Shown here piece after piece: positions 1,813 to 9,381 of a stretch of DNA of 11,597 nt. Under the pieces are notes generated by a model. That model was not told where the DNA came from and searched no databases. It saw only the letters and a list, made by a program, of their open reading frames with translations. The position numbers and the translations under genes were made by a program. The first letter of the stretch is position 1. Each line of letters opens with the position of its first letter. The stretch is from Candidatus Vogelbacteria bacterium (lineage in GTDB: Bacteria; Patescibacteriota; Minisyncoccia; Phycocordibacterales; XYD1-FULL-46-19). The stretch is from the NCBI GenBank assembly GCA_026395035.1, contig JAPLZN010000096.1, positions 1 to 11,597 on the forward strand, given 5' to 3'.

Positions 1813-2012
1813 AGTGTGGGCGGTGGAGGGCTCTCCCGCGACTAAAGTTTTTTCGTCAAAAAACTTTGTCTGGTCACCGCCTCGCGATTGCGCCTGCTAG
1901 CGCAATAACGCTCCGGCGTTCTCGCTCTCACGCAAGACAAGCAGTTGTCTTGCTCACCGCCCACACTTAAAAAACAAGTTTTTGTTTTTTAAGTGTGGGC
2001 GGTGGAGGGCTC
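1813..2012 (-). repeat. tRNA-3'-end structured element, copy 1 (at tRNA-Val)
   Basis: The 21-bp sequence at 1992-2012 (3' part of tRNA-Val plus 4 nt of trailer) is repeated directly at 1813-1833. Between them, plus-strand order, are a core of about 90 nt (1834-1923), GCTCTC (1924-1929, pairs with GAGGGC at 1826-1831), a hairpin (1932-1940/1945-1953, loop GCAG), and CACCGCCCACACT (1955-1967, pairs with 1813-1825). So the tRNA 3' end is present direct, inverted and direct, with a hairpin inserted in the inverted copy. The core holds further perfect inverted repeats: 1844-1853/1858-1867 (10 bp), 1887-1893/1900-1906 (7 bp) and 1907-1911/1916-1920 (5 bp). No ORF fits. The same architecture occurs at 8544-8746. 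A tRNA-targeting mobile element or a tRNA-trailer RNA structure is inferred. Confidence 0.7.
1955..2004 (-). terminator. tRNA-Val trailer hairpin reaching into the acceptor stem
   Basis: A perfect 23-bp inverted repeat (1955-1977/1982-2004) with a 4-nt loop contains A6/T6 tracts. On the minus strand it starts inside the tRNA: the whole 3' acceptor strand (1997-2003), the discriminator and 1 nt of the T-stem are part of the hairpin. It can terminate the tRNA-Val transcript, but its 3' arm also competes with the 5' acceptor strand of the tRNA. Confidence 0.75.
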
Positions 2013-2068
2013 GAACCCCCGACATCGTCAGTGTAAATGACGCGCTCTACCAACTGAGCTAACCGCCC
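1996..2068 (-). tRNA. tRNA-Val(UAC)
   Basis: 73 nt folding as a standard cloverleaf: acceptor GGGCGGT/ACCGCCC, D-stem GCTC/GAGC, anticodon stem CGTCA/TGACG with loop TTTACAC (anticodon TAC), T-stem GGGGG/CCTCC with loop TTCGAGC. Discriminator is A at 1996. The next bases are CAC, so CCA is not encoded and must be added by a nucleotidyltransferase. Confidence 0.97.
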
Positions 2069-3053: not shown

Positions 3054-3827
3054 ATGATTCGGAAACCCACCGAAATCGTATCACCAAATCTGCTCATCGG
3101 AGCCTCGCCGCTGGCCGTTCTCCGTCTTTGCCAAGGGTATTATGATTGCCCAAAAGACGAGGGAGGCAAACGACTGGGCCCGCTCATGGGTTACGCCGGC
3201 AAGTACAAAGACCCCACCACCGGCGAGGAAAAACAGTACGTGGGAGACGTTTACTACAACTTCTCCCAGGCCGAGCAATATCCCCATGTCCTCGCCTGGT
3301 ATGCCGAGCAAGTCGATCGGAAGCTTAGTGAAAACGGCTTTTCCGATTTCGACTGCATCCTCGGCGCCCCAATGGGCGGAATCGCACTCGCCCAAGCCCT
3401 GGCCGCTCGTCGGGACCGCCTCTTCGTCTTCGCCGAGAAGAAAGAGATTGCCCCCGCGACCGCCGGAGGTAGAGCGACATCCAAGCTGGTCCTGAACCGT
3501 CATGTCATCGAGAAAGGAATGCGGGTGATGTTGGGGGAGGATGTTTGCAACAACTACTCCACCACCGACGAAACCGGAACTCTGGTCGCCAGCCGTGGTG
3601 CTACTCTGGCCGGGATCATCTGTGCGTTCAATCGCTCGGGGCACTGGCAGCGGAAAGGCATCCCCGTCTTCTCACCCGCCTTCCTGCCAACCCGACAATA
3701 CCGGCAAGATGACCCGGCTGTAGCCCTAGATGTCGCCGCCAGCAATGTCCTCTGGAAACCCAAAGATGAGTGGGCCAAGGTCCGCGAGATACTCGCGGTT
3801 GGCGACTGGCTCGTTCCGGGACAATAA
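3054..3827 (+). CDS. Orotate phosphoribosyltransferase-like PRTase with altered PRPP loop
   Basis: 257 residues. Pairing with pyrF suggests the preceding step, orotate + PRPP to OMP. PRTase features: DCILGAPMGGIALAQALA (residues 100-117, the G-x-P-x-G-G-x-x-x-A turn), FAEKKE (126-131, where OPRTs have F-x-R-K-E), and MRVMLGEDV (156-164), the strand entering the PRPP loop. The loop itself is not canonical: instead of ED-x-x-T-T/A-G-G/T-S there is EDVCNNYSTTDETGT (162-176), apparently with an insertion of a few residues and without the glycine pair. An N-terminal part (GYAGKYK...YVGDVYYNF) precedes the Rossmann-like core. It could be a true PyrE variant, or a PRTase with another base. It is the last gene before a terminator. 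Confidence 0.75.
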   Translation: MIRKPTEIVSPNLLIGASPLAVLRLCQGYYDCPKDEGGKRLGPLMGYAGKYKDPTTGEEKQYVGDVYYNFSQAEQYPHVLAWYAEQVDRKLSENGFSDFDCILGAPMGGIALAQALAARRDRLFVFAEKKEIAPATAGGRATSKLVLNRHVIEKGMRVMLGEDVCNNYSTTDETGTLVASRGATLAGIICAFNRSGHWQRKGIPVFSPAFLPTRQYRQDDPAVALDVAASNVLWKPKDEWAKVREILAVGDWLVPGQ

Positions 3828-4027: not shown

Positions 4028-4099
4028 GCCCTCGTAGTTCAATGGATCGAACAGCGGACTTCTAAGCCGTTAATGTTGGTTCGATTCCAACCGAGGGCA
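4028..4099 (+). tRNA. tRNA-Arg(UCU)
   Basis: 72 nt cloverleaf: acceptor GCCCTCG/CGAGGGC, D-stem GTTC/GAAC, anticodon loop CTTCTAA (anticodon TCT), T-stem GTTGG/CCAAC with the normal loop TTCGATT. The anticodon stem has an A-G mismatch at its loop end (31-39). Discriminator is A at 4099, followed by CAA, so CCA is not encoded. Confidence 0.97.
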
Positions 4100-4138
4100 C
4101 AAATAAAAAAACGCCAGTGGCGTTTTTTTATTTGTGCC
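4096..4138 (+). terminator. Bidirectional terminator of tRNA-Arg(UCU) and the pil operon
   Basis: A 21-bp perfect inverted repeat (4096-4116/4118-4138) includes A7/T7 tracts and a GCC/GGC core. It begins inside the tRNA: discriminator A4099 and the last three acceptor bases are in the left arm. It also serves the minus-strand operon ending at 4175. Confidence 0.85.
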
Positions 4139-4143
4139 TAACT

Positions 4144-4172
4144 TATCACTCATCACTTGTCATTCATCATTG
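4144..4172. repeat. Degenerate TCATCA-type intergenic repeat, copy 1
   Basis: A 29-nt stretch built from units like TCACTCATCA matches 7676-7704 at 24 of 29 positions. It fills the gap between the terminator and the stop of the minus-strand operon. Confidence 0.6.
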
Positions 4173-7657: not shown

Positions 7658-7675
7658 ACCTTTTGCATTTTAATT

Positions 7676-7704
7676 CATCACTCATCATTCGTAACTCATC
7701 ATTG
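7676..7704. repeat. Degenerate TCATCA-type intergenic repeat, copy 2
   Basis: It matches 4144-4172 at 24 of 29 positions. It lies between the tRNA-Ser promoter and the divergent membrane-protein gene. Confidence 0.6.
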
Positions 7705-8543: not shown

Positions 8544-8746
8544 ACCTCGACAGGAATCTTTCCCTACGGGAACGGTATGGGCTTCATATCTCACTTCGCC
8601 TTTCGCCAAACTCAAGGCTCGTTGCGATACATTCAGCCCTTTCGATTCCTGTACGCAAGCCGTGCAGACGGCTTGCTCGAGGTCACACAAATAATAAACG
8701 CCACTTTCCAGTGGCGTTTATTATTTGTGTGACCTCGACAGGAATC
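8544..8746 (-). repeat. tRNA-3'-end structured element, copy 2 (at tRNA-Arg(GCG))
   Basis: The 15-bp tRNA 3' sequence at 8732-8746 is directly repeated at 8544-8558. In plus-strand order the interior holds a core of about 85 nt (8559-8643), GATTCCTG (8644-8651, pairs with 8551-8558), a hairpin (8655-8663/8668-8676, loop GCAG) and TCGAGGT (8677-8683, pairs with 8544-8550). Thus the inverted copy of the tRNA end is split by a hairpin, exactly as at 1813-2012. The core also contains GGGCT/AGCCC complementarity but no convincing ORF. The rest of the gap from 8476 to 8543 holds only the presumed promoter and leader of the small ORF. Confidence 0.7.
8677..8738 (-). terminator. tRNA-Arg(GCG) trailer hairpin reaching into the acceptor stem
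   Basis: A perfect 29-bp inverted repeat (8677-8705/8710-8738) with a 4-nt loop. On the minus strand its 5' arm begins inside the tRNA, covering 1 nt of T-stem, all seven 3' acceptor bases and the discriminator. It lacks a long T-run, so termination is less certain than at the other tRNAs. Confidence 0.7.
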
Positions 8747-8801
8747 GTACCTGTATCGTGGGATCCGCAATCCCATATTCTATCCGTTGAACTACGAGGC
8801 C
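8730..8801 (-). tRNA. tRNA-Arg(GCG)
   Basis: 72 nt: acceptor GGCCTCG/CGAGGTC (one G-U), D-stem GTTC/GAAT (one G-U), anticodon stem TGGGA/TCCCA with loop TTGCGGA (anticodon GCG), T-stem ACAGG/CCTGT. The T-loop is TACGATT, with A instead of U at position 55. Discriminator A, followed by CAC; CCA is not encoded. Bacteria usually read CGN with an ACG (inosine) tRNA, so GCG is noteworthy. A decaying tRNA cannot be excluded, but all stems are intact and a promoter is present. Confidence 0.9.
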
Positions 8802-8856: not shown

Positions 8857-8880
8857 AAAAAACCCCGAGTGGGGCTTTTT
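8857..8880 (-). terminator. Rho-independent terminator downstream of rpsT
   Basis: Minus-strand stem AAAAAGCCCC/GGGGTTTTTT (one G-U) with a 4-nt loop and T6. It lies about 125 nt past the rpsT stop, beyond the 107-bp element at 8889-8995. Confidence 0.8.
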
Positions 8881-8888
8881 GAGATTTT

Positions 8889-8995
8889 CGCGTTTGGATA
8901 CAGTTCGAGGCGCGAGCGAGGAGCAAACCGAGATGTATATGGAAATACATTGAGGGAGCACCGGAGCGAAGCAACGAAGAAATGTGCCAAACGCG
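8889..8995. repeat. 107-bp MITE-like element in the rpsT 3' region
   Basis: Terminal inverted repeats of 9 bp (CGCGTTTGG at 8889-8897, CCAAACGCG at 8987-8995) bound a purine-rich interior with an internal ATGTAT/ATACAT hairpin (8933-8938/8945-8950). No ORF is supported. It lies between the rpsT stop and its terminator, so it would be transcribed as 3' UTR. Confidence 0.5.
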
Positions 8996-9005
8996 GAAGT
9001 CTCAA

Positions 9006-9269
9006 CTACGACGCTTTCTTAATCTGGGCCGAGAGACGAGACTTCTTGCGGGCGTCGGTATTCTTTTTAATCACTCCCCGCTTGAGCGCCTTGTCGATCG
9101 CCTGATAGGCAGCCGAGAGAGACTTTTTGGCTTCAGAAGCTTTATTGTCGGCGGCCAACTTCTTCGTGTCCTTGATCGCCGATTTCATGGCATCCTTGCG
9201 CTTTAAATTGAAAACCCGCTTGCGAGTGGAAGCGCGCAGGGCCTTTTTTGCTGATTTGATGATAGGCAT
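9006..9269 (-). CDS. rpsT: Small ribosomal subunit protein S20 (bS20)
   Basis: 87 residues, the normal S20 length. S20 binds 16S rRNA in the body of the 30S subunit as a three-helix bundle. Family features: the very basic N-terminus MPIIKSAKKALRASTRKRVFN (family pattern xxxKSAxKRxRxSxxRRxxN), the middle helix MKSAIKDTKKLAADN, and the C-terminal AYQAIDKALKRGVIKKNTDARKKSRL, which is the S20 signature (K-G-x-I-x-x-N-x-A-x-R-x-K-S-R-L). The ATG follows its -10 box by 6 nt, so the mRNA is predicted leaderless; this removes the usual 5' leader for autoregulation. Divergent from ruvA. Confidence 0.97.
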   Translation of the reverse strand: MPIIKSAKKALRASTRKRVFNLKRKDAMKSAIKDTKKLAADNKASEAKKSLSAAYQAIDKALKRGVIKKNTDARKKSRLSAQIKKAS

Positions 9270-9314: not shown

Positions 9315-9381
9315 TGTCATTCCCGCGCAGGCGGGAATCCAGAAAGAATAGACCTGGATTCCCGCCTGCGCAGGAATGACA
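9315..9381. repeat. Inverted intergenic repeat with dRS3-type core
   Basis: Two 28-nt arms (9315-9342 and 9354-9381) are complementary except for one mismatch, with an 11-nt spacer. The left arm contains ATTCCC-N8-GGGAAT (9319-9338), which matches the consensus of the neisserial dRS3 repeat, a motif widespread in bacteria. It lies between the divergent rpsT and ruvA promoters. Mobile-element-like hairpin or bidirectional transcription barrier. Confidence 0.8.

Follow-up and report, generated by a model that had tools for sequence, protein, structure and literature searches.

The window, as we call the whole stretch of 11,597 nucleotides that was analyzed, belongs to a genome of 808 kb in 158 contigs (85% complete). 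ARAGORN finds four tRNA genes in the window, and at two of them, tRNA-Val(TAC) and tRNA-Arg(GCG), both on the reverse strand, the gene is followed by a short element. In the order of the tRNA strand, each locus consists of the tRNA, which ends in a (the 3' half of the T arm) and b (the 3' strand of the acceptor stem); a trailer palindrome; b', a single A, a hairpin, GT, and a'; a core; and then a and b once more.

At the first of these loci, tRNA-Arg(GCG) (8729..8801, reverse strand, like all the parts that follow; Rfam tRNA score of 61.8 bits) runs into a perfect palindrome of 29 bp (8677..8738, with arms at 8710-8738 and 8677-8705 and a 4-nt loop), which was found by a repeat search. The palindrome extends 10 nt inside the tRNA, given the gene end as ARAGORN sets it, and is made up of the 3' end of the tRNA, a terminator-like trailer x with its inverse, and then the inverted acceptor copy. 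Within it, b' (8678..8684) is the complement of the 3' acceptor strand, and the single A (8677) separates b' from the hairpin (8655..8676), which has a perfect 9-bp stem and the loop CTGC on the tRNA strand. The hairpin was found by a pattern search and scores 48.7 bits with R1, a covariance model of the hairpin and its flanks that we built from 8 copies in this genome, the Arg and Val copies included. After GT (8653-8654) comes a' (8641..8652), the complement of the 3' half of the T arm, which pairs with the distal copy in the predicted fold. The 82-nt core (8559..8640) was assigned to what we call class B by its fold as a single copy and by an RNAalifold alignment in which it is one of 14 rows; it is predicted to form a long hairpin followed by a shorter one whose loop is GTA, in a three-way junction closed by a' and a. 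The element ends in a direct copy of the tRNA's 3' end (8544..8558, 15/15 nt): 8544-8558 matches 8732-8746 without mismatches, and the extended pair (8544-8563 and 8732-8751) is 90% identical. Positions 8530-8805 fold as DNA with a z score of -10.5, and the element alone (8544-8685) folds as RNA with a z score of -6.0.

At the second locus, tRNA-Val(TAC) (1995..2068, reverse strand, again with all of its parts), the trailer palindrome is perfect over 23 bp (1955..2004, with arms at 1955-1977 and 1982-2004) and runs into the inverted acceptor copy. The hairpin, GCAAGACAA-CTGC-TTGTCTTGC (1932..1953), was again found by pattern and scores 55.4 bits with R1. The stretch comprising a', the core, and the distal copy (1817..1931) matches R2, a model of the class A core that does not include the hairpin and is independent of R1, at 52.6 bits; the Val copy was outside the set that R2 was built from. 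The direct copy of the tRNA's 3' end is 21/21 nt (1813..1833; repeat search). A pseudouridine synthase gene lies directly after the element, with no island there, as judged from the sequence and Pfam.

An earlier note on this DNA had proposed that the layout repeats piece by piece at the two loci, and the order of parts is indeed the same; its coordinates for the acceptor complement, the T-arm complement, and the core of the Arg element are correct to within a few bases of those given above. It also argued that two such loci go beyond chance. The enrichment of the hairpin (see below) and the fold z scores bear this out. The core lengths are indeed nearly equal, but the cores themselves are unlike: the Val core is of class A and the Arg core is of class B, and the class A model matches only the Val element in the window. 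The argument from a common core therefore fails. Of the two findings that the note held would count against it, unrelated cores are what we see at these loci, but the hairpin is not equally common away from tRNA genes.

Several other repeats lie in the window. A perfect palindrome of 21 bp (4096-4138) reaches 5 nt into tRNA-Arg(TCT) without any hairpin or core; it is either a native trailer or a decayed element. Two 34-nt copies of the CATCACTCATCA type (82% identical; 4139-4172 and 7671-7704) lie behind tRNA-Arg(TCT) and upstream of tRNA-Ser. A 28-bp inverted repeat (96%) of the TCATTCCCGCG...GGGAATCC type (9315-9381) lies between the gene for ribosomal protein S20 (9006-9269, reverse strand; Pfam) and ruvA. 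Just behind the S20 gene, a 19-nt inverted repeat (89%) surrounds a folded stretch (8879-9005; RNA z score of -4.05), and this stretch may be a further structured trailer element, here next to a protein gene.

The exact hairpin pattern occurs just twice in the 808-kb genome, and both matches are the copies in the window. With two mismatches allowed, there are 13 matches, of which 8 keep a perfect stem and the loop CTGC. Besides the two window copies, these are behind tRNA-Ile, tRNA-Ala, tRNA-Leu, tRNA-Tyr, and the tmRNA, and at the end of topA; that is, 6 of the 11 additional matches keep the perfect CTGC stem, and 5 of those 6 are behind a tRNA or tmRNA, with the sixth at topA. R1 has 14 matches in this genome at E values up to 1. 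In the window and in 20 stretches from relatives, 24 of the 39 perfect 9-bp tetraloop hairpins that lie at most 100 nt beyond the 3' end of a tRNA or tmRNA have the loop CTGC, as against 8 CTGC hairpins, counted strand specifically, in the remaining 379 kb; because the relatives' stretches were picked around model matches, the comparison between positions is fair, but the count is not a genome-wide rate. The hairpin is thus concentrated behind tRNA genes, as the earlier note supposed. The motif that it gave (GCAAG-N4-GCAG-N4-CTTGC) is too narrow, as the stems vary (GGAAG, GCACG, GTGAG, and others). The constancy of the CTGC loop follows from our patterns and model, which require it; we also saw a third class of core with other hairpin loops, as well as versions without the hairpin. 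Hairpin-free elements with a further type of core (GGGGTCGGGAAAAC..CCGTGGAGGAAGG) lie at tRNA-Arg(GCG) in genomes G006 and G013, tRNA-His in G003, tRNA-Ser(CGA) in G009, and the tmRNA in G008 and G022.

Across a sample of 41 genomes from the same order (this genome included), R1 matched 34, with up to 20 matches per genome, and R2 matched 36. The hairpin model had no match in the other 7 genomes of this sample, and 4 of those 7 also lacked a match to class A. In an even sample of the phylum, R1 matched 10 of 143 genomes, again including this one. A more specific hairpin pattern matched at least 113 stretches from named genomes. Among the 80 matches listed, 48 have names of candidate phyla (of the Patescibacteria type), 12 are Elusimicrobia, 2 are Burkholderiales, 1 each belongs to Parachlamydiales and Campylobacterales, and 16 lack a telling name. 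When whole genomes from other phyla were searched, R1 matched 11 of 11, all of them chosen for having a match: 8 Elusimicrobia had 2-16 matches each, and the parachlamydial, Burkholderiales, and Campylobacterales genomes had 6, 3, and 2. The hairpin pattern and two class A patterns had no matches in a collection of viral sequences.

In the Burkholderiales genome, the three hairpin copies (L348, L354, and L364) are 34 and 40 kb apart. Two of them have flanks in common, up to the core and beyond, and tmRNA-like ends are visible by eye upstream; perhaps these are tandem islands. By eye, an IS91-type reading frame lies near a Burkholderiales copy, and we therefore searched for Y2_Tnp, the HUH transposase of IS91- and Helitron-like elements, as well, but it is present in just 1 of the 41 genomes and does not track the copies, so we dropped this link.

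Among 188 distinct copies in the loci that we fetched, 136 begin less than 75 nt behind a tRNA or tmRNA, 18 are at 75-600 nt (8 of these being later hairpins of a locus), and 34 have no detected tRNA (12 of these begin at most 160 nt from the upstream end of the available stretch). The hosts include tRNAs for all 20 amino acids and the tmRNA. Copies also sit at the ends of a few protein-coding genes, as identified with Pfam: topA (L010 and L170), an lpxA-like gene (L186), and a radA-like gene (L077, from Campylobacterales). Two tRNAs that ARAGORN missed appear, by eye, to contain a group I intron (L326, and L062 around 3430-3700); in L062, a LAGLIDADG reading frame (PF14528; 2737-3423) lies before the intron-like tRNA, which is followed by the element. 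With R2, which is independent of the hairpin, the best locus of each of 30 genomes has a same-strand tRNA up to about 250 nt upstream in 25 cases, a tmRNA (by coordinates) in 2, and the intron-bearing tRNA of L326 in 1. The other 2 have neither (L317 and L332), and one of these is near the end of a contig. Where elements form tandem arrays, the border of the repeat is the tRNA end.

The arms follow the neighboring gene. In 172 elements, the arms match the end of their own tRNA at a mean of 0.886, compared to 0.583 for other types of tRNA, and 140 of the 172 reach 0.8, compared to 2.3% of 3,325 cross pairs. This agrees with the earlier note, which had the copied sequence as that of the host tRNA. 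The hairpin splits the inverse copy without loss between tRNA positions 64 and 65 in 77 of the 172 elements and between positions 65 and 66 in 46; in the other 49, the junction differs by one or more bases. Thus, b' and a' are inverted copies of the 3' halves of the neighbor's acceptor stem and T arm, with the hairpin at their junction. At G.U positions of the acceptor stem (127 elements), b' complements the 3' strand 31 times, repeats the 5' strand 4 times, and does neither 3 times. We therefore reject the 5' acceptor strand of the tRNA as the source of b', which is instead derived from, or kept paired with, the 3' strand.

The far direct copy of the tRNA end, which the earlier note described, is present at both loci of the window but is not general: 80 of 166 elements have one with at least 16/20 nt, 85 are below this threshold, and for 1 the tRNA was not readable. 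In 72 of the 80, the copy lies 60-130 nt after the hairpin, which leaves no room for a gene, an integrase included. No long, gene-bearing core was found among the 136 copies close behind a tRNA or tmRNA: 71 of these have a copy with at least 16 matching letters, and just one such copy is beyond 430 nt (16 letters at 1,157 nt, in L033), which we take to be chance.

The cores fold. For class A, we aligned 13 sequences with MAFFT and drew the structure by hand (alignment A2): 90.6% of the cells are paired, 17 of 27 pairs have two-sided changes, and the covariation is 0.473, compared to 0.192 in shuffled alignments. In alignment A3, whose 37 model matches were aligned to the model and hence fitted to the structure, 25 of 27 pairs have two-sided changes, with 218 two-sided cells compared to 62. 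For class B, 14 hand-chosen sequences were folded with RNAalifold, and 19 of the 21 predicted pairs have two-sided changes. In both classes, then, compensatory changes go beyond chance, as in structured RNAs, and the core is a covarying three-way junction closed by a' and a, of at least two classes; the Arg copy in the window folds in this way.

In 67 of 80 elements, the strand of the tRNA sense gives a more stable fold than the complementary strand; the mean difference is 5.45 kcal/mol. Non-Watson-Crick pairs, counted at 173 hairpin sites, comprise 15 GT, 2 AC, and 5 others; the excess of GT over AC has P = 0.002 (two-sided binomial test), to be read knowing that some copies are related and some were found by a model that tolerates G.U. 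Outside the hairpin, the asymmetry does not reach significance: it fails in the a'/a helix (12 to 8; P = 0.50) and is weak in the class A helices (11 to 7, P = 0.48; 25 to 13, P = 0.07). Given the 67 of 80, the antisense strand is disfavored as the folded product. G-T pairs are rarer in the hairpin (15/1,557) than in the acceptor stems of tRNAs (89/2,513). This difference may favor DNA over RNA, but we give it no weight because the hairpins were picked for near-perfect pairing.

Comparisons between genomes show presence and absence. Of two congeneric genomes, G015 has an insertion at the tmRNA locus and G013 has none; the flanks are 86-87% identical. The terminator, which is the trailer palindrome, is kept in both genomes and so belongs to the host. 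The insertion in G015 is about 900 bp and starts from b', behind the terminator; its element ends in the tmRNA 3' end with CCA. This insertion (L269) also includes a reading frame of 138 amino acids after the element, before the right flank (87% identical over 524 bp). It is the only congeneric insertion that we saw, and it is not a clean insertion of the element only. The terminator of the 138-aa frame resembles that of neighboring small genes, and perhaps an array of small accessory genes lies behind the tmRNA in G015. More broadly, of 30 tmRNA loci, 24 were readable (5 were left out for lack of an ARAGORN end and 1 because it stops 12 nt after the gene): 13 are filled, with or without the hairpin, 10 are empty, and 1, at a contig end, is undecided. 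At orthologous Val and Leu(gag) loci, too, some genomes have an element and others do not. At Leu(gag) in G008, just b' and the A remain, joined to a (by eye), which is likely a remnant of an element.

Cores and arms can part from each other. On the one hand, the elements at tRNA-Tyr, tRNA-Pro, and the tmRNA of G029 have closely similar cores (scores of 71, 57.5, and 53.5) with different hairpin stems, so some cores are common to different tRNAs of one genome. On the other hand, stems are identical in 8 of 81 pairs with the same tRNA in different genomes (9.9%; 3 of the 8 are pairs between the congeners G013 and G015), compared to 1.8% of 2,720 pairs with different tRNAs, and 4 of these 8 pairs, each spanning two families, have unrelated cores (tmRNA of G000 and G006; Tyr of G013 and G040; Tyr of G015 and G040; Val of G006 and G040). 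The cores are alike in the other 4, the 3 congeneric pairs and 1 other. Averaged over all pairs, cores from one genome are no more alike than cores at the same tRNA: the mean core score is 14.6 for different tRNAs of the same genome (202 pairs), 14.6 for the same tRNA in different genomes (81 pairs), and 11.4 for neither (2,720 pairs), and scores of at least 35 are reached by 7.4%, 4.9%, and 1.6% of pairs, respectively. A BLAST comparison, which reports alike stretches only, of one G013 element (from the hairpin onwards) to G006 gave 7 matches off the orthologous locus (72-90% identity over 88-131 bp; 84-90% for the best four) and two over the orthologous region (72% and 69%). In L119 (2579-2644), the trailer, b', and the hairpin are duplicated over 44 nt within one element.

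We tentatively favor, at somewhat less than an even chance, that these are nonautonomous mobile elements, about 150-200 bp long and built as b'-A-hairpin-GT-a'-core-a-b when read in the direction of the tRNA gene. Their position, the arms that match the host tRNA, the direct copies, and the folded single strand fit this reading. The filled and empty tmRNA loci of the congeners, the patchy spread (34 of 41 genomes in the order but 10 of 143 in the phylum), and the similar cores in G029 point to mobility. Counted against it are the 85 of 166 elements without a direct copy of at least 16/20 nt, the lack, among the four enzyme families searched (Y1_Tnp, RVT_1, Phage_integrase, and Y2_Tnp), of one that tracks the copies, the G015 insertion, core averages that do not follow the genome, and a GT/AC asymmetry that is absent or weak outside the hairpin. 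As for enzymes, Y1_Tnp is found in 26 of the 41 genomes but does not track the copies: G018, with 15 hairpin matches, has none, and G011, with no matches, has five. Similarly, RVT_1 is found in 18 of the 41 genomes but not in G013, G018, G025, G029, G035, G037, or G040, all of which have many copies.

If the elements are mobile, then the active form would be a single strand of the tRNA sense, either RNA or DNA. This strand would fold into two successive three-way junctions, the first formed by b'/b, the hairpin, and a'/a, and the second by a'/a and the two hairpins of the core. The split guide (b'-hairpin-a') could pair either with the end of the tRNA or with its distal copy; in both cases, the junction of a and b would lie opposite the hairpin, and this junction may be the site of recognition and joining, both at the donor and at a new tRNA. 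Insertion would occur behind the tRNA, which would stay intact, and cores might be exchanged between sites. The arms would have to be brought to the sequence of the new tRNA, and we guess that this happens by copying or conversion; it is the least explained step. A host factor might be the mover. A more specific proposal is that the element carries no gene at all and has no dedicated transposase: the split guide would pair with any tRNA 3' end and take on the sequence of the local tRNA whenever the element reaches a new site. A single core could then colonize the tRNAs for all amino acids, with either the host's machinery or the element's own fold moving it. Taken as a whole, this seems rather unlikely to us.

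Alternatively, the elements might be resident genes for noncoding RNAs: a tRNA-like RNA, with b'/b as an acceptor-like stem, the hairpin standing in for the D and anticodon arms, and the core for the T loop, would be made next to the tRNA and act on the maturation or dosage of the tRNA, and gene conversion would homogenize the cores. The strong covariation in both classes of core, the better fold of the tRNA-sense strand, and the tendency of stems to follow the type of tRNA (9.9% vs. 1.8% identical) all fit. This account has difficulty with orthologous tmRNA, Val, and Leu(gag) loci that are filled or empty depending on the genome, with copies at the ends of topA and the lpxA-like and radA-like genes, and with the 7 genomes without a hairpin match, 4 of which lack class A as well. 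We consider it doubtful.

It is less probable still that we are looking at attachment sites of a tyrosine recombinase, or their scars, possibly of the host's single Xer-like protein, with attL and attR in the repeats of the tRNA end and the arm region of a reduced attP in the core. The repeated tRNA 3' ends, in those elements that keep them, and the tandem arrays bordered by the tRNA end are what such sites would give, as are the three spaced copies in the Burkholderiales genome. Also, among the 80 elements with a direct copy, CCA is in the distal copy only in 12 and in the gene only in 3 (both, 7; neither, 58). Against attachment sites, the pseudouridine synthase gene follows the Val locus directly, with no island, and in the congeneric pair it is the host's trailer that adjoins the tmRNA. 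Furthermore, Phage_integrase (PF00589) is found in 38 of the 41 genomes, mostly once each, with or without copies of the element, and has no match in the genome of the window, which has 10 copies (in an assembly that is 85% complete). Finally, we know of no att site with an inverted arm split by a hairpin or with a covarying core.

Two template switches during replication, at palindromic trailers, could yield a DUP-INV-DUP product with the order a b, b' a', a b, the rest being chance, and long perfect trailer palindromes do occur without an element (such as 4096-4138 in the window); but the same hairpin, flanked by A and GT, at over 100 loci and the covarying cores are no accidents of replication, so we find this improbable as a full account, although template switching could be how the arms are copied. 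Ordinary bidirectional terminators plus extra sequence are very improbable: the trailer palindrome does have A-rich and T-rich arms, and is host sequence in G013 and G015, but terminators would account for the trailer only, and not for the hairpin, the arms, the core, or the direct copy.

If the elements are nonautonomous and mobile, as we tentatively prefer, then they would choose their targets by means of arms that change with the site, without a gene of their own, and to our knowledge this has not been described for small elements. If they are resident, then they form a large family of tRNA-linked structured RNAs, in several phyla, for which we found no Rfam entry. On either reading, the question of what occupies the trailers of tRNA genes becomes open to testing in these small genomes and also in Elusimicrobiota, a phylum that includes cultured members.

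A search of the open-access literature, by title and the start of the abstract, found no study of such elements; preprints and most subscription journals were outside its scope. A survey that reportedly covers thousands of candidate structured RNAs from human microbiomes (PMC8040213) could include such a motif. Like the families in Rfam, the elements are covarying and structured, but at curated thresholds, Rfam's only matches in the window are the four tRNAs. At six further loci, searched at E values up to 5, all matches were below threshold; these included tmRNA_permuted in L219 (26.6 bits, compared to a gathering threshold of 47), which spans the tmRNA end and the element, and Alpha_RBS in L066 (19.9 bits, compared to 38), just downstream of the core.

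Integrative elements that target tRNA genes, with a tyrosine recombinase and attL and attR sites, likewise lie at the 3' end of a tRNA or tmRNA, often with a direct copy of the tRNA end (here recognizable in 80 of 166 elements), and keep the tRNA whole. In contrast, the elements described here are, at about 150-200 bp, too short for a gene, have an inverted copy split by a hairpin and a covarying core, and occur at all 20 types of tRNA as well as the tmRNA, and the integrase count does not track their copies. In IS200/IS605 and REP/RAYT systems, small hairpins are acted on as a single strand, and a guide adjacent to the hairpin pairs with the cleavage site; here, the arms are about 20 nt and change with the target, there are direct repeats, and Y1_Tnp does not track the copies. 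Elements such as tRNA-derived SINEs and retrons are also small structured RNAs that include tRNA sequence or flanks that pair, but here each copy has the sequence of its neighbor, and RVT_1 is absent from seven high-copy genomes. Direct copies with CCA where the gene lacks it, as a copy of mature RNA would have, outnumber the reverse (12 to 3 of 80), and a distal copy that was originally the end of the gene would give the same excess. The attC sites of integrons, which occur in arrays and have a variable end loop, are inverted repeats with imperfections that work as folded single strands. They are set apart by the arms, which here are the end of the neighboring tRNA, and by the hairpin branch on one strand; for integrases, the comparison covered the general Phage_integrase search. 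As far as their defining features were compared, the elements fit none of these known families.
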